From a bacterium (GTDB lineage: Bacteria; CSSED10-310; JAFGSJ01), in NCBI GenBank assembly GCA_016934675.1, contig JAFGSJ010000141.1, positions 1-64,000 on the forward strand: DNA of 64,000 bases, given 5' to 3'. The notes under the pieces were generated by a model. The model saw only the letters and a program-made list of their open reading frames with translations. It did no database searches and was not told the origin of the DNA. A program made the position numbers and the translations under genes. This document shows, piece after piece, positions 5,493 to 39,929 of the stretch. Numbering within the stretch: the stretch's first letter is position 1; each line of letters begins with the position of its first letter.

Positions 5493-5521
5493 TTGACGAA
5501 AGCACTCATCTAGAATATTAT
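5493..5521 (+). promoter_or_regulatory. Sigma70-type promoter before the kinase-ARH gene
   Basis: TTGACG (5493-5498), a 17-base spacer and TATTAT (5516-5521) form a good promoter in the 163-base gap between the pseudokinase and the active kinase. Transcription would start near 5528, about 100 bases before the ATG at 5632. Confidence 0.5.
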
Positions 5522-5631: not shown

Positions 5632-8600
5632 ATGATCTGTTCCCAGTGTGGTAAAAGCTTTGCCGATGAACTCGGTTCGTGTCCCTATTGCTCGACCTTA
5701 CCCAAGAAAATCGAACAGAAACTGGGCGCAGATTTCATATCCCGCTTATTTGCAGGTGATCTTCCCAGTGGGACACCTTTTGGTGACCGCTATCAGATCG
5801 AGGAACTGGTCGGTCGGGGGGGCATGGGCATCGTGTATCGATCCAAGGATAATATCCTGCACGAGACCGTCGCCATCAAACTGCTTAACCCACTGTTCAG
5901 CTCTGATAAGGAAATCGTGGTCCGGTTCAAACAGGAAATAAAACTGGCCCGAAAGATCAATCACAAGAATGTGATCCATATCTATGATATCGGTGAAGTT
6001 GATGGCATCAGATATATTTCAATGGAATATGTCCAGGGAAAGGATTTGAAAGAAGTGATCCGGGCGGAGGGCGGAGGTCTGCCCCTGAACGTCGGCATCA
6101 TGATCATTCAAAAAATCGCAGAAGCCCTCCAGGTAGCCCACGATCTGGATATCATTCATCGCGATATCAAACCTCAGAACATTCTGATTCAACCAAACGG
6201 TGACGTCAAGATTCTCGATTTCGGCATTGCCCGTCTGTCCGACTCGGATGATCTCTCGAAAACAGGGTCGTTGCTCGGCTCACCCGTCTATATGTCACCA
6301 GAACAGGCCTCAGGGAAAGATACTGACCGTCGGACCGATATTTATTCGCTGGGAGTAATCATGTTTGAGATGTTTACCGGTCGCATCCCTTTCCTGGCCG
6401 ATACACCGATCGCAACGGCCTTGAAACACGTGAACGAGACACCACCATTGCCCTCATCCTTGAATCCCGATATTCCGGTCTGGGTCGAAAAAGTCATCCT
6501 AAAAGCCATGGAAAAAGACCCGGCCAACAGGTTCCAGAAAGTGATCGATATTATCGATCCTGTCCACGGTCTCCACATCAGCAGAATCACCGATACGGAT
6601 ATCGTGGTCTGTGCCCAGTGTGGCAAACATAATCCAGCCTCGAATTCCTCCTGCTCCAATTGCCAGTCCTTTTTGATCAAGGAAGCACCGTCAGAGCAGA
6701 GTTTACCTGTTCAAACATTGCCTGTTCTGGAGGTCCAGGCTGAAGAACGAAGATTGATGCGCTTGGCTACCGCCGCTTTTGAACGGCACGACTTGCAACA
6801 GGCCAAAGATCATCTCGAACACCTGCTGTCCATTACTCCGGAAAATGTTAAAGCACAGCGTATGCTCGAAGTCATAGACTCCAAAATCAGGCTCGAAAAG
6901 AAAATCAATCTTTACCATCAGAATGCCCTGATTTCGTTTCAGGACAAAAAATATGATGATGCTCTGGCCCTTTGGGAGAAAATTATCCAACTTGATCCGG
7001 ACCGGACCGAATGGAACGATTTTCTGGTCAAAGCCCGTGATGCCCAGGGTATGTATAATCGGATTAAAGGCTTTATCAGTAAAGGCTTGCAGGCATACAA
7101 CCAGAATGATTATCAAGAAGCGATCTCATACTGGGAGAAAGTGATCGAAATTGACCCTCGTAACCCGGAAGCCGTTTTCTATATCTCGAAAACACAAGTG
7201 CTCCTCGACTCTGAAAACAGATATCTGAATCTGCAGAACCAGGCAGAAATTTTTATCAAACACCATGAATATTCCAAGGCCATCGAATGTTATGAACAAC
7301 TCTTGAAGCTGGATCCGGAGAATATTGCCCTGCAAATCAAGCTCGATGAATTACGAGAGACCGAGACTATTAATAATCTTTTGGCCGAGGGCCTTGCTCT
7401 TTACAATCATCACGAATATGAGCAGGCCATAACCTGTTGGCGGAAAATTTCCGATCTTGATCAGGATAATAAGGACGCCCATAATTATATCATCCAAGCC
7501 GAAGCCAGGATCAATGAATTAATCAAAGTGAAAGAAATTTTTCGGATTGGCTTGGTCCATTTTAAAGACAAACAATGGAAAAATGCCATCGCTCAATTCG
7601 AGGATGTCCGCAAATTCGAGGGACCGTATCAGAAAGATGCTCTGGCTTTTATCCTCAAATCCCAACAACAACTGGAAAAAGAAAGCAGGATAGAAAAACT
7701 GCTCAAGGAAGGCCTCTTGATCTATCAACAGGAACATCACGACCCTTCCCGAAAAATCTGGGGCGCTTCGGCTGCGATAAAAGAATGGGAAAAAGTCCTT
7801 GAAATCGAGCCGGACCATGCTGAGGCCCTGGATTATATCGCTAAGGCGAAACTGATCATCCAGAGATCAAAGATGTTGGCTGAATCAAAGAAAACCGAGG
7901 GAGTTGTGCCCACGATTATCTCGACCCAGGCAGCCGAGTCGTTACTCAAAGCCGGGCAAAAAGCTAAACTCAAAAAACAACGGAAAAAAATCGCTGTCAT
8001 ACGGGACATCCAGGAATACGTCGTTGGGGCCATTATCGGAGGTGCTATCGGTGATGCTCTGGGTTTGGGAAACTCCTGGGTCGTCCGTCGGAGTGATGAT
8101 ATCGAAGACATCACTCATTATGTTGCCAATACGATCGGACACTTCCGAAATATACAACCAGGGCAGATCAGCGGGGATTTGGAACTGGTCCTCAAGACCA
8201 TGTTGCTCCTGTTTCAGGGTGATACTCTCAAGGCGAGCAATGTATTGCATACCATGATCAAACAAAAGAAAAAAATAGCCTCCCCCCTGGAAAAGAGTAC
8301 CGATACGCTGTTGAATAATCTGAGGAAGGGCGTCGCCTGGAAAGATGCCGTCCTGGTCGAGGAAGATGATTTTTCACCTCTCTATCGGTCGGCACTCATG
8401 GCCACTTTGACTTTCCATGACCAGGAAAAAATGGTCAGGAACATCAAAACACTGGTCATGATGACCCATCGAAACAAAAAGGTCCTGGCTTGCAGCATGG
8501 CTGTCGCCTTTGCCTTGGCCTCCATCCTGGAATACCGGAACACGACCCTGAAAGGTGCGAGCGCCATGATCGGCGGCGATACTGTGCCCATACCCCTGTG

Positions 8601-9012
8601 GGATAATACCTCTTTTATCAAATCAATCAGCGAACATGTCGAGGATTATGACCTGGAAACCGCTGACCAAATCCGAGAACTCCTGATCTATTCCTCCATG
8701 CCTTCTGAACGCTTTTTTGATACAGTCGGCATCAGCGATAAGGCCCAGGAAACTCTGCTCGCCTCCCTGTTCTGTTTTCTCAAACATCACGATAATTTCA
8801 GCGAAGCTGTAATATTGGCTGTGAATTCACGCGGCTCGAGTAAACATGTCACCGGTAATCGACACGGTATTGCCGGCTTGACCGGTTTCATGACTGGAGC
8901 ATATAATGGCTTTGTCCAGATACCCTTTGCCTGGATCAACGATTTACTCGACCACAATCAAGTGTTCGAAACAGCTACTTCTCTCTTTACAACCTGTATA
9001 GCCGCACGCTGA
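5632..9012 (+). CDS. Ser/Thr kinase-TPR-degenerate ADP-ribosylglycohydrolase fusion
   Basis: This 1126-residue protein has four parts. An N-terminal zinc ribbon (C3, C6, C17, C20) is followed by a complete Hanks-type kinase: GRGGMG loop at 61-66, VAIK K83, HRD 176-178, N183, DFG 196-198 and SPE 222-224. A second zinc ribbon (C327, C330, C341, C344) leads into about eight TPR-like repeats (370-740). The C-terminus (about 790-1126) has the ADP-ribosylglycohydrolase/DraG fold signature GAIIGGAIGDALGLG (799-813) and the mid-domain THRNKKVLACSMAVAFALA (945-963). However, the metal-binding TDDT motif reads SGDL (847-850), and the terminal GGDTDT position reads GSSKHV (1068-1073). The ARH part is therefore probably not a normal hydrolase and may be a binding module. 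The stop overlaps the next start. No transmembrane helix is apparent. Confidence 0.85.
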   Translation: MICSQCGKSFADELGSCPYCSTLPKKIEQKLGADFISRLFAGDLPSGTPFGDRYQIEELVGRGGMGIVYRSKDNILHETVAIKLLNPLFSSDKEIVVRFKQEIKLARKINHKNVIHIYDIGEVDGIRYISMEYVQGKDLKEVIRAEGGGLPLNVGIMIIQKIAEALQVAHDLDIIHRDIKPQNILIQPNGDVKILDFGIARLSDSDDLSKTGSLLGSPVYMSPEQASGKDTDRRTDIYSLGVIMFEMFTGRIPFLADTPIATALKHVNETPPLPSSLNPDIPVWVEKVILKAMEKDPANRFQKVIDIIDPVHGLHISRITDTDIVVCAQCGKHNPASNSSCSNCQSFLIKEAPSEQSLPVQTLPVLEVQAEERRLMRLATAAFERHDLQQAKDHLEHLLSITPENVKAQRMLEVIDSKIRLEKKINLYHQNALISFQDKKYDDALALWEKIIQLDPDRTEWNDFLVKARDAQGMYNRIKGFISKGLQAYNQNDYQEAISYWEKVIEIDPRNPEAVFYISKTQVLLDSENRYLNLQNQAEIFIKHHEYSKAIECYEQLLKLDPENIALQIKLDELRETETINNLLAEGLALYNHHEYEQAITCWRKISDLDQDNKDAHNYIIQAEARINELIKVKEIFRIGLVHFKDKQWKNAIAQFEDVRKFEGPYQKDALAFILKSQQQLEKESRIEKLLKEGLLIYQQEHHDPSRKIWGASAAIKEWEKVLEIEPDHAEALDYIAKAKLIIQRSKMLAESKKTEGVVPTIISTQAAESLLKAGQKAKLKKQRKKIAVIRDIQEYVVGAIIGGAIGDALGLGNSWVVRRSDDIEDITHYVANTIGHFRNIQPGQISGDLELVLKTMLLLFQGDTLKASNVLHTMIKQKKKIASPLEKSTDTLLNNLRKGVAWKDAVLVEEDDFSPLYRSALMATLTFHDQEKMVRNIKTLVMMTHRNKKVLACSMAVAFALASILEYRNTTLKGASAMIGGDTVPIPLWDNTSFIKSISEHVEDYDLETADQIRELLIYSSMPSERFFDTVGISDKAQETLLASLFCFLKHHDNFSEAVILAVNSRGSSKHVTGNRHGIAGLTGFMTGAYNGFVQIPFAWINDLLDHNQVFETATSLFTTCIAAR

Positions 9013-10454
9013 TGGACGAAACACGCTTCATACAAGAAAATGCCGATTCTCTCCATAAACTCGAACTACTGGTCTTCTTCTATGATAATCCCTCGACCAT
9101 GGATACGGCTGAGAGTCTGGCGATCTGGTCCGGCATTCCACTTGTCGATATCACTCCTATTCTCGCACAATGGTCCCACAGTGGCATACTCAAACAAGAG
9201 GGCGCTATTTTCTACCTGATGACCGAATCCGATCTATTCCCGATTCTCGAGAAAGTCGTGCTTTCCTATAAGTCAACCCGTCGCTTGTTTCGGGTCGAGC
9301 TTGATAAGATCACCCAACAGCAGCGGGAGGAGCAGCGCAGACACGAAGCAGCCCTGACTCTCGAAACCGGCAAAACCGACACGTTGCTGGAGAGCATCTC
9401 CGATGCAGTCATTTTGATCGATAAGGACAGGTCCATTACCCGCTTCAACCGGGTCTTCCCGAGTTTTTTCCCATCGTTCAACCCGAGTCAGCTACCCTGC
9501 TCTTTTGATTTTTTCAAATCAGATCAGGAATTATATCAGGTATTCACAACTCTGTTCGCAAAGGGTGAAGGGAGCCATAAAAAGACCCTGGGGGAACGTT
9601 GCTATGAGATTGTCATTACCAGCATCAAAGATGAGTATGGTTCAGCCCTCCTCGATGAAACCGGTCAATCAGTCGGCTTCGTCTGGGTATTCCATGATAT
9701 CTCCATGCAGATGCAACTGGATAGAATGAAGGAGGAATTAAGCCGCATGATCACGCATGATCTCCGTAGTCCCATGGCTGGTATTCTCACTGCATTCGAA
9801 TTGCTCCTGAAGAATGCCCAGGAGAGTCTGTCCGAGAATCTCTATAAATCCTGTCAATTGGGTAAAAAGACCTCACAATTTCTGCTTGATATGGTCAATG
9901 ATCTGCTTGATGTTCAGACCATCGAAGATGGGACACTGCCCATCGCCACAGGGCCGACCACGATTCAAGACCTGGTCAGTGAAAGTCTGGACCAGGTCTC
10001 GAGCCTGGCCCAGGACCGACTGATCGAGCTTTCATCCGATCTTCCCCACAAAAACTGTCGGCTCATGGCCGATCACTCGAAATTGGTCCGCGTTTTCGTC
10101 AACCTGTTGACCAATGCTCTCAAGTTTACTCCCAAGAAAGGTTCGGTCAGTATCGAGCATGTTCTACTCGAATCGGGTGATCGGGCTTTTGCCGAAAAAG
10201 CCGATCCAGAATCATCCCGAATCATCATTCGAGTCCAGGATAATGGTGCCGGTATTCCGCCCGAGGACCTGCCCTTTGTCTTCGACAAATACTATCGGGC
10301 TCAGCAATCTAAAAAATCCTACATCGCCGGCACCGGCCTGGGGCTCTATTTCTGTAAACTCATCCTCAAAGCCCACCACGGTGATATCTGGGTAGAAAAC
10401 AGGCAACCTCAGGGCTCCACGTTTTCAGTGCTCCTACCCCTGACCGGCCCCTGA
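9012..10454 (+). CDS. PAS-domain sensor histidine kinase
   Basis: This 480-residue protein is a soluble two-component sensor kinase. Residues 1-95 look helical and winged-helix-like, with no close family recognised. A coiled coil and a PAS domain (about 118-235, opening LLESISDAVILIDKDRSI) follow. HisKA carries the phospho-acceptor H249 in MITHDLRSPMAG. HATPase_c shows the N box NLLTNALKFTP, the G1 box DNGAGIP and the G2 box GTGLGLYF. No transmembrane helix is seen, so it probably senses an internal signal. The ATG overlaps the TGA of the kinase-ARH gene by one base (TGATG), so translation is probably coupled. No response regulator is adjacent; the nearest in the window is at 43603-44679. Confidence 0.88.
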   Translation: MDETRFIQENADSLHKLELLVFFYDNPSTMDTAESLAIWSGIPLVDITPILAQWSHSGILKQEGAIFYLMTESDLFPILEKVVLSYKSTRRLFRVELDKITQQQREEQRRHEAALTLETGKTDTLLESISDAVILIDKDRSITRFNRVFPSFFPSFNPSQLPCSFDFFKSDQELYQVFTTLFAKGEGSHKKTLGERCYEIVITSIKDEYGSALLDETGQSVGFVWVFHDISMQMQLDRMKEELSRMITHDLRSPMAGILTAFELLLKNAQESLSENLYKSCQLGKKTSQFLLDMVNDLLDVQTIEDGTLPIATGPTTIQDLVSESLDQVSSLAQDRLIELSSDLPHKNCRLMADHSKLVRVFVNLLTNALKFTPKKGSVSIEHVLLESGDRAFAEKADPESSRIIIRVQDNGAGIPPEDLPFVFDKYYRAQQSKKSYIAGTGLGLYFCKLILKAHHGDIWVENRQPQGSTFSVLLPLTGP

Positions 10455-34379: not shown

Positions 34380-37300
34380 ATGGTCTTGAGCAAGAACAAG
34401 CTGTTTTGCAGTCTGGTTATCGTGGTGCTGTTAGGTGCAGTCCCGGTTTTTTCACAGATGGTGAAAGATGGGCAATCGGCACTTGACGCCTTGACGCTTC
34501 TATCGTCCGAATTGAGGGTGGTGGAAACGAATCAGGATGTTCGTGAGCTGAAGGAGTCATTCGTCACCCAGACAGGGATAGACCTGTTTTTGAGTGATAA
34601 TGATGACAACTGGCATGTCATCGTGGACAAGCGACGAGGAGTGCCATCATTGATCGATGGGGGCGCGATTCCTTTTATTCCTGGGGTGAAGAACACGTTG
34701 TCCTGGTTGGATTTTGGGGCAAGTTGCGAATCAATTCGCTGTTTGGCCAAGGAAGAAGTCGAGTCGCGGGCGCGTGAATTTCTGGAGATATATCCGGGTC
34801 TTTTTCCGGTCAGCCAGGCTGAACTGGTCATGGACCCCGAGGGGACGCTGCCCATCGGTGAGTCGATATACCTGCTTCGTTTTCAATGGGTGATCGATAA
34901 CATACCGGTTGAGCGGGGCTCACTCTTTTTCAGGATCAACAATGGTAATCTGATCCAGGTGGCATCGACCAATATAGCCTCGATCGGGAAGCTGGACACA
35001 AAGCCGTCCTTGCCGTTGGAAATAGCCTGGGACATCCTACAGGAGTATCTGGGCAAAGAGGGTGTGACGAAGCGGGACGAGATCGTTGAACCGGGCAGGT
35101 TGGTCATCGTGCCGATCACGGTTCGGGGATATGATGCCAATGTGTATCAGGGCCCGATCGGGACGATGCATGATTTTGCTTTATGCTACCGGATCACGTT
35201 TCGCCGTTCCGGGGTGATCGGGACGTGGGAAGCCCTGATTAATGCTCATACAGGTGAGTTGTTACGGTTCGTCGATGCCAATCGGTATGGTCAGATTCAG
35301 GGTGGTGTGTATAAAACCGACAAGAACCCGACCCAGACCGAAGTGACCATGACCTTCCCGTATGCGGATTACGGCACGAGCAGTTTTGCGGACATGGGCG
35401 GTTTGTTCTCCGGGACGACCGGGACCTCGACCATGACCGGTCGGACGGGCAGTTCCGGTAATGTGGGCAGTGTTGACATCTCGGATAACTGCGGAGCCAT
35501 ATCACTGGTATCGGATGCAGAGGGCCTGATTGACTTCGGGACTTCGACCGGGACGGACTGTACCACGCCCGGAGTGGGAGGGGCGGGCAACACGCACGCT
35601 TCCCGGACACAGTATTACAATGTGGCCTGGATCAAGATCAAGGCGTACACCTATTTAACGGGTAATACCTGGTTGCAAGGTGTTTTGACGGACAATGTGA
35701 ACATAAACAGCACGTGTAATGCCTACTGGAGCGGGTCCACGATCAATTTCTATCGCTCTGGCGGCGGATGCGGTAATACGGGAGAGATTCCGGGCGTGTC
35801 GCTGCATGAGTGGGGCCACGGTATGGATGATAACGACGGTTCCGGCGGTCAAAGTCCTCCGGTGGAAACGCGGGCCGATTGGACGGCAATACTGCAGACG
35901 CACCAGTCCTGTGCCGGTGGCGGTTTTTTCATGTCGTATGATATGGGCTGCGGTAATCCTCCTTCGCAGGGCAGCGAGTATCATAACTGCGGTGGTTACG
36001 GAGATTGCTGTCTGGACTGTTCGGGTATACGCGATTCGGATTGGGCCCAACATGCGTCCAATACGCCCTGGACGCCAGCGAACAACGTCGATGGTGGCGG
36101 CAGTGTGTGGGGTAGTTGTGGTACCGGGTCGTATCAGGGTCCCTGCGGATGGGAAGACCACTGTGAAGCGGGCTTTTCTTCACAGGCCCTCTGGGACCTG
36201 GTCAATCGCGACCTGCCCACGTATTGTTCCATGGATATCACCTCGGCCTGGCAATTGGTGGACCGCCTGTGGTATAGTTCCATGCCGCAGCTTGGTGATA
36301 TGTATACCTGTACCCCGCCGACCTCGAATGGGTGTGGCTCGACCAGTTTATTCAATCTGTTCCGCTCCTTTGACGATGACGGGGACGGGACATCCAATGG
36401 GACGCCTCATGCCCAGGGCATATTCCAGGCATTCGAGCGTCACATGATCGCCTGCGGAGCGGCAGGTGATGAATCAAACCAGAACCAGACTTCCTGTCCG
36501 CCACTGGTCGTTTCGACCTTATCAGGCGTGGCGGGTAGTAACTCGGCGGTCCTGACCTGGGGAGCTGTCACGAATGCCACTCGTTATTTTGTATACCGGA
36601 ACGACACTTCCTGTGATTCGGGCTTCACCAAGATAGCCACAGTCACCATACCGATGACCAGTTATACTGATACCACGGTGATCAACGGTGTCACCTCGTA
36701 TTACCGGATACAGGCGGCGACGAACAATGATTCCTGTGTCAGCGCGATGAGTAACTGTGTCGAGGTCACGCCCCAACCCTGTGCCGGAACAGTGACATTA
36801 GACAATCCCCAGTATAATTGTGCGGGGACGGTCAATGTGACCGTACTCGATTCCACGGCACCGGCATCACCGTTCGACGTGGAGGCCTGGTCAACGACCG
36901 ACTCGACCCACATATACATCGAAGTAACGGGCATTCCCTCGACCTATACCGGCTCGTTCACCTTGACGACGGGCACGCCCGGTTCGAACCAGGTCCAGGT
37001 TTCGGACGGCGACACGCTCTACGTGCAATACACCGACCCCGATTACTGCGGTGGTGGGAGCCAGTCAGTGTTGGCCACGAGCACGATTGACTGTCAACCG
37101 CCCATCATCTCGAATGTTCAGATCTCGGATATAACCGACAGCACCGCTTTGATTACCTGGACTACCAATGAGGTAGCCAACTCACGGGTCACATACGATA
37201 CTTCCACTCCTCCGGCCATGATCGAGGATGACCTGACGAGTTATGTCACCAGTCATGCAATCACGCTGACCGGTTTGACCATGTGCACCGATTACTATTT

Positions 37301-39929
37301 CAGTGTCACCTCGGTCGATCCCGCAGCGAATTCAGTTACGGATGACAACAGCGGGGCATACTATTCATTCGAGACCTGGGGCAGAGTGTATAGCTTCCAG
37401 GACGACATGGAGTCGGGCATCAACGGTTGGACCTCTTCAGGGCTCTGGCACCAGGTCACGGAACCGACCTGTACACCGTCAGCACAATCACCGAGCACGA
37501 GTTGGTATTACGGTCAGGACAGTGATTGTACCTTCAACACCGGCTCAACGACGAGTGGGCGACTCTATTCGACACCTTTCGAGGTGGATCCCGGTACCTT
37601 TCTCGAATTTTGGTATCGCCGCAACACGGAGTGTGGTGGCTGTTGTTCTTATGACGACAGCATTGTCCAGATTTCAACCGATGGAGGATCGAATTGGGAT
37701 ACACTCGAGGAAGTCTGCGACGATACTGATAACTGGGTCGAATATGCCGGTTATGATTTATCCGCTTATGCCGGTCAGACCGTTAATCTCGGTTTCTATT
37801 TCAACAGTGTAGACAGTGTTTCCAACTCGTATACGGGCTGGATGATCGATGATGTCTCGATCTCGAAGCCAGCAGCGTGTGGTGCCTATCTGGCGTATGA
37901 GTCCAACACTTTTACCGATGACTGTTCAGTCGGCGGGACCGGTGACGGCGATGGCTTGATCGATGCCGGTGAGAGCGTGACCGTGATCATCACGGCTGCC
38001 AATGAAGGCTCATTAACGGCAACGGGCGTCTCAGCGGTGTTATCCAGCAGCACTCCGGGTGTGACCGTATCGGATAATTGGGCAGCTTTCCCGGATATTC
38101 CGGCCTATTCGACCGGGGTTTCCCTGGCCAATCATTTCACTTATCAGGTCAGTCAATCGGTTGCTTGCGGGACGACGCTGGATTTCACGATCGAATTCAG
38201 CGCGAATGGAGATAGCTGGACCGATTATTTCAGCATGGATGTTGGCGAAGTCATTCCCGGTAATTTCAGTCTGATCGATGAGGATTTCGAGAGTTCCTGG
38301 GGGACATATGGTGACAATCCACCCGCGGGTTGGACCATCGAGGACTATGGCGATGAAGGCACCCCAACCTGGAATGCCAACGACTGGTATCGCTACTCCA
38401 AGGGTGGGGCTAATTCATACATCGCCCGGGTCTATTATTCACCGCTCGAAAATCAGGACGAATGGTTGATCACTCCGACATTTGCCATTCCGTCCGGAGC
38501 GACCTCGGTCAACCTCGAGTATGACCATTATTTCCGGGTCTACAGCAGTGGTGAGTATGGTTATGTCGATTTCCGTTCGACCCAGAACCCGACCTGGACC
38601 AATCTGGTGACCTATTCGAGCACGACCACGGACATGGCCCATGTCACGATTTCATTGCTGGCCTATGCGGGTAACACCAATTGTGAACTAAGATTCCGCT
38701 ATGTTGGCTACAACGGTTGGAACTGGGACCTTGATAATGTGTTGGTTTCAGGTGTTCAAGAGGGCACGTGCAATATGACCCTGTGTGAGGGTGGTTGCAC
38801 AATGACCGTGGATGTGACCCCGAATGGGACGACTACGGTTTGCAGCGGCACGAATATTGTCTTCACGGCGACGCCGACCGGTGGGACCAGCCCGTACAGC
38901 TATCAGTGGACCCAAGATGGTTCGGACATTAGTGGGGCGACCAATGCCACTCTGACCCGGAACTACGGCACAGCTCAATCCCACTCCTATAATTGCAAGG
39001 TGTCCGATGCGGGCAGTTGTGTCGATATTGTCGATGCAACCAACTCGATTGGGACTTGGGAACTCACGCCGGGTGCACCGGTGATCACTTCGGTGACCGA
39101 TCTGAACGCCTGTGCGGCGACCGGTGTTTCGATCGTCTTCACGGCCGGTTCTGGTGCTTCGAGCCACAACCTGTGGGTGGATGGTTCCCAGGCAGCCACG
39201 GGCATAACCAGTCCGTATACCTATGTGCCCGGTGATACTTCGAGCCATAGTTACGTGGTTAGGGCAATCAACGGCAGTTGTTATGCCAATTCGAACGCCA
39301 TGGCCGGGACCGATTTCAACGACGGTGTCACCACAGCACCAGTCATTACGAGCATTGTTGACCAGGATCCCTTGGTCCAGGACGGCATTTTTATATACTA
39401 CATGGACGGCTCACCCGCGATGTCGCATGATTTATGGCGGGACGGCATTCAGGTTGTTACCGGTTATGTGACCGGGGCCTTGTATGATCCAGGTGACACC
39501 AACAGCCATAATTATGTGATTCGGGCGATAAACGGTGCCTGTTCTGCCGACTCGAACACCATGGCGGCGACTGATGAGGAAACGCCGTCTGTGCCTCCGG
39601 AAATCACGCCCATTGGTTGGACTGATAAAACCACGCTCAGCTGGTCCGAGGAAGTGACAGCCACTGACGGCTATGTGCTCTATCGGGGCGAACTGGCAAA
39701 TCTGGCCAATCTGCTGAACAGTGATCCGGATTTCTGTATTCGTTGGACCGGAACAAGCTCGAGTGATACCTCTGCGGGCGGTTTGACCGAAACCACCACA
39801 CTCGGCGATTGCTACTATTACCTGGTCGTTGGAGTCAATAGTCACGGCAATGGTACAGCCGGGTCTGCCACGGCCGGTGAACGCCAAGTGAACGATACCG
39901 GATTGTGTTATATCAGTTATACAGATTAG
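34380..39929 (+). CDS. Large secreted M36-like metalloprotease with adhesin repeats
   Basis: This 1849-residue protein has a signal peptide (SLVIVVLLGAVPVFSQ). An FTP/PepSY-type propeptide spans about 30-300, and a zinc protease domain with HEWGH (476-480) and a downstream VETRADW segment supplies the probable third ligand. HASNTPWTPAN and QALWDLVNRDLP resemble fungalysin-like (M36) proteases of Acidobacteriota style. Two FN3-like domains (about 700-805 and 900-1000), a MAM/immune-inhibitor-A-like module (about 1000-1165), a CARDB-like segment, a cleaved-adhesin (choice-of-anchor) module (about 1295-1460), an Ig/PKD-like unit, two tandem 87-residue repeats (1567-1740) and a final FN3-like unit follow. 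AAGGAGG (34366-34372) precedes the ATG. The protease is probably secreted or surface-bound; no sorting signal was recognised. A terminator follows. Confidence 0.8.
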   Translation: MVLSKNKLFCSLVIVVLLGAVPVFSQMVKDGQSALDALTLLSSELRVVETNQDVRELKESFVTQTGIDLFLSDNDDNWHVIVDKRRGVPSLIDGGAIPFIPGVKNTLSWLDFGASCESIRCLAKEEVESRAREFLEIYPGLFPVSQAELVMDPEGTLPIGESIYLLRFQWVIDNIPVERGSLFFRINNGNLIQVASTNIASIGKLDTKPSLPLEIAWDILQEYLGKEGVTKRDEIVEPGRLVIVPITVRGYDANVYQGPIGTMHDFALCYRITFRRSGVIGTWEALINAHTGELLRFVDANRYGQIQGGVYKTDKNPTQTEVTMTFPYADYGTSSFADMGGLFSGTTGTSTMTGRTGSSGNVGSVDISDNCGAISLVSDAEGLIDFGTSTGTDCTTPGVGGAGNTHASRTQYYNVAWIKIKAYTYLTGNTWLQGVLTDNVNINSTCNAYWSGSTINFYRSGGGCGNTGEIPGVSLHEWGHGMDDNDGSGGQSPPVETRADWTAILQTHQSCAGGGFFMSYDMGCGNPPSQGSEYHNCGGYGDCCLDCSGIRDSDWAQHASNTPWTPANNVDGGGSVWGSCGTGSYQGPCGWEDHCEAGFSSQALWDLVNRDLPTYCSMDITSAWQLVDRLWYSSMPQLGDMYTCTPPTSNGCGSTSLFNLFRSFDDDGDGTSNGTPHAQGIFQAFERHMIACGAAGDESNQNQTSCPPLVVSTLSGVAGSNSAVLTWGAVTNATRYFVYRNDTSCDSGFTKIATVTIPMTSYTDTTVINGVTSYYRIQAATNNDSCVSAMSNCVEVTPQPCAGTVTLDNPQYNCAGTVNVTVLDSTAPASPFDVEAWSTTDSTHIYIEVTGIPSTYTGSFTLTTGTPGSNQVQVSDGDTLYVQYTDPDYCGGGSQSVLATSTIDCQPPIISNVQISDITDSTALITWTTNEVANSRVTYDTSTPPAMIEDDLTSYVTSHAITLTGLTMCTDYYFSVTSVDPAANSVTDDNSGAYYSFETWGRVYSFQDDMESGINGWTSSGLWHQVTEPTCTPSAQSPSTSWYYGQDSDCTFNTGSTTSGRLYSTPFEVDPGTFLEFWYRRNTECGGCCSYDDSIVQISTDGGSNWDTLEEVCDDTDNWVEYAGYDLSAYAGQTVNLGFYFNSVDSVSNSYTGWMIDDVSISKPAACGAYLAYESNTFTDDCSVGGTGDGDGLIDAGESVTVIITAANEGSLTATGVSAVLSSSTPGVTVSDNWAAFPDIPAYSTGVSLANHFTYQVSQSVACGTTLDFTIEFSANGDSWTDYFSMDVGEVIPGNFSLIDEDFESSWGTYGDNPPAGWTIEDYGDEGTPTWNANDWYRYSKGGANSYIARVYYSPLENQDEWLITPTFAIPSGATSVNLEYDHYFRVYSSGEYGYVDFRSTQNPTWTNLVTYSSTTTDMAHVTISLLAYAGNTNCELRFRYVGYNGWNWDLDNVLVSGVQEGTCNMTLCEGGCTMTVDVTPNGTTTVCSGTNIVFTATPTGGTSPYSYQWTQDGSDISGATNATLTRNYGTAQSHSYNCKVSDAGSCVDIVDATNSIGTWELTPGAPVITSVTDLNACAATGVSIVFTAGSGASSHNLWVDGSQAATGITSPYTYVPGDTSSHSYVVRAINGSCYANSNAMAGTDFNDGVTTAPVITSIVDQDPLVQDGIFIYYMDGSPAMSHDLWRDGIQVVTGYVTGALYDPGDTNSHNYVIRAINGACSADSNTMAATDEETPSVPPEITPIGWTDKTTLSWSEEVTATDGYVLYRGELANLANLLNSDPDFCIRWTGTSSSDTSAGGLTETTTLGDCYYYLVVGVNSHGNGTAGSATAGERQVNDTGLCYISYTD

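Follow-up and report, generated by a model that had tools for sequence, protein, structure and literature searches.

Pseudo-ARHs, in which an ADP-ribosylglycohydrolase (ARH) fold has lost its metal site, are best documented in vertebrates (ADPRHL1). A bacterial case is protein P0001, encoded in the window studied here (the whole 64,000-nucleotide stretch of bacterial DNA that was analyzed), in which a domain of this kind forms the C terminus of a Ser/Thr kinase. With its presumably active kinase and a pseudokinase encoded next to it, P0001 is a compact bacterial setting for studying the role of a dead ARH fold, and allows one to ask if bacteria link ADP-ribose signalling with protein phosphorylation. 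A Ser/Thr kinase to which a pseudoenzyme domain has been added is a known kind of protein; in P0001 it takes a new form, at present a singleton.

Domain organization of P0001

P0001 is encoded by a single unbroken ORF of 1126 codons with an ATG start, and nothing comparable was present on the opposite strand at 5632-9012. A sequence-only reading of this DNA had described a 1126-residue protein combining a complete Hanks kinase, two four-Cys zinc ribbons, TPRs and a C-terminal ARH domain. Both the ORF with its coordinates and each of the domains were borne out, with Pfam, motifs, repeat spacing and the structural model in agreement (Table 1). From the N terminus, the order is zinc ribbon, Ser/Thr kinase, zinc ribbon, TPRs and pseudo-ARH.

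Table 1. Positions of P0001, its parts and its neighbors in the window
Feature	Position (strand)	Residues	Basis	Remarks
P0002	1026-5468 (+)	1480 aa		pseudokinase, TPRs, one predicted TM helix (aa 1106-1124), TPRs
Promoter-like TTGACG-17-TATTAT	5493-5521 (+)		consensus match only	upstream of P0001
P0001	5632-9012 (+)	1126 aa
N-terminal zinc-ribbon motif	5638-5691 (+)	3-20	sequence motif	C3 C6 C17 C20
PknB/StkP-like kinase domain	5791-6534 (+)	54-301	Pfam, E 3.6e-50
Second zinc-ribbon motif	6610-6663 (+)	327-344	sequence motif	C327 C330 C341 C344
Seven TPR-type repeats	6745-7851 (+)		Pfam TPR families, spacing, model
TPR-ARH linker	7894-7968 (+)	~755-779	model	pLDDT < 55
ARH-fold domain	8020-9009 (+)	~797-1126	Pfam, AlphaFold, Foldseek
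Glu-flap position	8074-8076 (+)	815	alignment	S815; E in 26/32 homologues
SGDL, at TDDT motif	8170-8181 (+)	847-850	alignment	D849 (ARH3 D78) sole kept Asp
EDDFSPLYR, replacing AGNGSAMR loop	8362-8388 (+)	911-919	alignment	R919 alone retained
RGSSKHV, 7-residue insertion	8830-8850 (+)	1067-1073	MAFFT, HMM
TGNRHG, GGDTDT counterpart	8851-8868 (+)	1074-1079	MAFFT, HMM	helix start in model
Histidine kinase (HisKA + HATPase), cytosolic	9012-10454 (+)		Pfam, sequence	downstream of P0001

The kinase domain carries the Gly loop GRGGMGIVY (GRGGMG at 61-66), VAIK with its Lys (K83), HRDIKPQN with the HRD Asp (HRD at 176-178), DFG with its Asp (196-198) and MSPE, as in Hanks-type Ser/Thr kinases of the PknB kind, and its best matches in the PDB were Staphylococcus STK, PknB and StkP (E about 1e-60). 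Because these catalytic motifs are complete, the kinase is presumably active. Both ribbon motifs have the form CxxC-x10-CxxC. The TPR-type units begin at residues 372, 425, 478, 531, 580, 633 and 687, giving an unusual period of ~ 53 residues as against the usual 34-residue unit, and the helices in the predicted model alternate between ~ 14 and ~ 31 residues. A model of the TPR and ARH regions together (772 aa) had a pLDDT of 83.4 and a pTM of only 0.54, with the linker between them of low confidence.

The layout of metal ribbon, kinase and TPR scaffold is that of PknG from Actinobacteria, which is soluble and has a Cys4 metal module (rubredoxin/zinc) at its N terminus and a TPR scaffold at its C terminus, and P0001 would likewise be soluble under the explanation that is somewhat favored below. 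However, the P0001 kinase is PknB/StkP-like by sequence, and the protein differs from PknG in its second ribbon, its C-terminal pseudo-ARH and its long-helix TPR array. None of the 25 best matches of P0001 in NCBIfam or Pfam was a PknG model, and its kinase is not closest to PknG. The TPR domain of PknG has been proposed to connect GlnX, a membrane protein, with the phosphorylation of substrates (PMC8546545).

The ARH fold and its metal site

The C-terminal region of P0001 matched PF03747 (ADP_ribosyl_GH) over residues 799-1098 with an E-value of 1.8e-27 and a score of 97 bits (cut-off 26). An AlphaFold model of the domain, built with 32 homologues, had a pLDDT of 89.9 and a pTM of 0.91, and a Foldseek comparison with the PDB placed it closest to MJ1187 (TM 0.89), followed by DraG (0.83) and ARH3 (about 0.75), with Tri1 also matched. 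The model thus puts the region in the all-helical ARH fold to which the profile match also assigns it. The z-score of the profile alignment against shuffled sequences was 79, far beyond chance. Membership of the ARH superfamily is secure at the level of the predicted fold, because the confident model matches MJ1187, DraG, Tri1 and ARH3. Identity to homologues is ~ 20%, and the domain is therefore probably old, without recent capture. It shares the GxxxGDALG opening with the PF03747 proteins DraG, Tri1 and MJ1187, and the intact opening claimed for it, GAIIGGAIGDALG, lies at 799-811 as described. In contrast to P0001, active ARHs of this type have TDDT and GGDTDT-type motifs and carry neither kinase nor TPRs.

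The register of the metal site was taken from a MAFFT alignment of the 32 homologues and cross-checked with an HMM built without P0001. In human ARH3, one Mg is bound by T76, D77, D78 and D316, and the other by D314, D316 and T317; changing any one of the four metal Asp to alanine abolishes activity (PMC8141533). P0001 has S847 G848 D849 in place of T-D-D, and N1076 R1077 H1078 G1079 in place of D-x-D-T, so that D314, D316 and T317 of ARH3 correspond to N1076, H1078 and G1079, respectively. The position of D316 is Asp in all 32 aligned homologues and His in P0001. Of the four Asp that bind metal, three are therefore absent. The Glu of the flap and the GNG(S/A) loop (911-918), on which the sequence-only reading had not remarked, are also replaced, while D849, R919 and T945-H946 are retained. 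The sequence-only reading had correctly placed SGDL at the TDDT position, but had taken GSSKHV for the GGDTDT position, where both the MAFFT alignment and the HMM assign GSSKHV to an insertion and give TGNRHG as the counterpart. The loss of the metal site that it had deduced stands nevertheless, on different residues (N1076, H1078 and G1079), and no alternative complete metal site was found. Hydrolysis by this domain, already doubted in that reading, is unlikely, because the binuclear metal center is lost and ARH3 does not tolerate the replacement of even one metal Asp by alanine.

The closest stand-alone relatives (L131, L132, L107 and L133) retain TDDT together with GGDTDS, GGDTDT, GNDTDT or GGDSDT, so the loss took place on the branch that gave rise to the fused domain and is specific to it. 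Two further ARH homologues have degraded metal motifs, SDAS/ADSPVM in L113 and TSNT/GGDSSS in L115, so pseudo-ARHs are not confined to P0001.

Gene neighborhood and distribution

The gene upstream of P0001 encodes P0002, with a YebC gene farther upstream. The N-terminal kinase fold of P0002 was detected by Pfam (E 1.2e-9), but it is a predicted pseudokinase because its catalytic motifs are degraded, with HSNxSxxN in place of HRDxKxxN, Arg in place of the VAIK Lys and DFR in place of DFG. Its single strong hydrophobic segment is flanked on both sides by TPRs. The kinase and TPR regions of P0002 are homologous to those of P0001, and the two form a tandem pseudokinase/kinase pair. The genes are separated by 163 bases, in which no terminator-like site was seen; a gap of this length with a promoter-like match weakens the case for a single operon. 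Downstream, the ATG of the histidine kinase overlaps the stop codon of P0001 by one base (TGATG), which suggests that the two are translationally coupled. A role for P0001 in anti-phage defence was considered and found unsupported, as PADLOC matched only the kinase domain and no part of the ARH. Elsewhere in the window (34380-39929), a protein of 1849 aa gave only a weak Reelin-subrepeat match.

The source genome (5.45 Mb in 169 contigs) has at least 51 kinase matches and one PF03747 match, P0001 itself, and a scan of genome contigs with the ARH domain found no relative. The phylum is little sampled, with eight genomes available for the searches, none nearer to the source genome than phylum level; two of the others contain ARHs, and no second kinase-ARH fusion was confirmed among the eight. 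Altogether, about 1,280 distinct genomes were searched with the ARH family or domain, including a 386-genome family survey and domain searches of the same 386 and of three further sets, and no second kinase-ARH fusion was confirmed among the matches listed. Among these matches, only one open frame with an ARH approached P0001 in size (1069 codons), and it was rejected as a counterpart because it proved to be a fusion of ARH with DNA ligase. Literature searches, mostly outside subscription journals, found nothing relevant on a Ser/Thr kinase-TPR-ARH fusion. The earlier statement that no protein with this order has been described is thus in agreement with searches that were broad, though short of exhaustive.

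The ten longest ARH fusions scanned contained no kinase. In the long fusions examined, the partner was an inositol monophosphatase, GntR or NAD-dependent DNA ligase, or else there was no other Pfam match. The ligase fusion is a protein of 1058 aa at L143:7029-10205, in which an ARH with intact metal motifs is joined to an NAD-dependent DNA ligase (adenylation, OB, HhH and BRCT). Fusions of an inositol monophosphatase-like domain with ARH were found in three genomes of different families, at L006:502-2502 (called by reading the sequence), L034:1333-3333 and L099:1875-3908 (both called by Pfam), and a GntR DNA-binding domain is fused to ARH at L104:1223-2917. As in P0001, the ARH of the inositol monophosphatase and GntR fusions is appended to another domain, but there it lies C-terminal to a non-kinase domain.

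The closest kinase outside the source genome is at L169:1691-3532 (-) in G001 (MAG Dive96_bin1.51), with 46% identity to P0001 over the kinase and second ribbon. The tail of this kinase lies at L169:1691-2497 (-), and its C-terminal 25 residues, with the stretch GIEAIPEHLV, resemble the end of the ARH domain at a sub-threshold level (a 23-residue Pfam match at E 0.07, hhalign probability 15%), but the whole-domain profile z of the tail against ARH was only 0.36. It is a candidate ortholog of P0001 and no more, the whole-region test having failed.

Possible roles of the ARH tail

One interpretation of these data, and the one that is held with a little more than even confidence, is that P0001 is an active kinase with a pseudoenzyme ARH as a recognition or scaffold module, and that its likely partners are P0002 and the histidine kinase. 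A kinase of the PknB type would have gained a C-terminal ARH domain, the binuclear metal site of which was later lost. The tail would then act as a noncatalytic recognition module, its fold and cleft binding either a protein or some ligand that is not plain ADP-ribose, and it would steer the activity, substrate choice or localization of the kinase. The TPR array may dock partners, plausibly the adjacent membrane-anchored P0002, and output may pass to, or crosstalk may occur with, the translationally coupled histidine kinase; only the adjacency of the three genes points to these links, although the proposed tie between the PknG TPR domain and GlnX is a precedent for a kinase working through TPRs in this way. 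In favor of a recognition module, the active-site motifs are replaced while the remaining fold is well kept, as the z-score shows, and the frame is undisrupted. The module is also favored because its best analogue, the vertebrate ADPRHL1 (ARH2), has lost three of the four metal Asp, is not expected to hydrolyze and has no comparable activity, yet in vivo the altered cleft is indispensable (PMC7390403). P0001 is a pseudo-ARH of the same description, an ARH fold from which most of the metal Asp (three of four) are lost. The two differ in that ADPRHL1 is a stand-alone eukaryotic cardiac protein and the P0001 domain a bacterial fusion tail, and in that, of the two N-terminal Asp, ADPRHL1 retains the first (Asp55, ADPRH numbering) and P0001 the second. 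Counting against a recognition module, the genome searches gave no ortholog that would show whether the pseudo-pocket is conserved.

The sequence-only reading had instead seen the tail as an ADP-ribose or nucleotide sensor. It could be that the dead pocket still binds free ADP-ribose, an NAD-derived nucleotide or ADP-ribosylated proteins and so gates the kinase, and the retention of D849, R919 and T945-H946 is consistent with this; moreover, the D77A substitution alone gives ARH3 a 23-fold higher affinity for ADP-ribose, so a pseudo-ARH can in principle read tightly (PMC8141533). However, the second site is gone as well in P0001 (N1076, H1078 and G1079), and the conserved GNG loop is replaced. 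Removal of the second metal from ARH3 by D314A weakens ADP-ribose binding about 44-fold, from 1.4 to 63 μM, close to the value of about 80 μM for the metal-free protein (PMC8141533). As the positions of both D77 and D314 are altered here, sensing is disfavored and considered rather unlikely. A broader form of the idea appears improbable: a kinase family of this phylum would use a pseudo-ARH as its reader domain, within a three-gene module that includes a membrane pseudokinase and a histidine kinase, and would read rather than erase ADP-ribosylation, or a protein mimic of it.

That the captured tail is decaying or neutral, without a function of its own, would fit a singleton in the genome sample with several active-site motifs lost. 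This too is improbable, since the domain is full-length and stop-free (330 aa) with a well-preserved fold, and its low identity to homologues marks it as old. The least probable reading, and a very unlikely one, is that the tail is still an enzyme, in which D849, N1076 and H1078, perhaps together with the neighboring insertion, bind another metal and catalyze a different hydrolysis. Asn and His are able to be metal ligands and occupy exactly the two places from which the Asp pair was lost, but the equivalents of D77, T317 and the flap Glu are gone as well, and in ARH3 the loss of a single metal Asp to alanine is sufficient for inactivation (PMC8141533).

Of the ARH homologues, three others (L043, L050 and L004) have SHE[ST] at the TDDT position with GGDTDA intact. 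These could be candidate ADP-ribose readers, because the D77A substitution in ARH3 tightens ADP-ribose binding.
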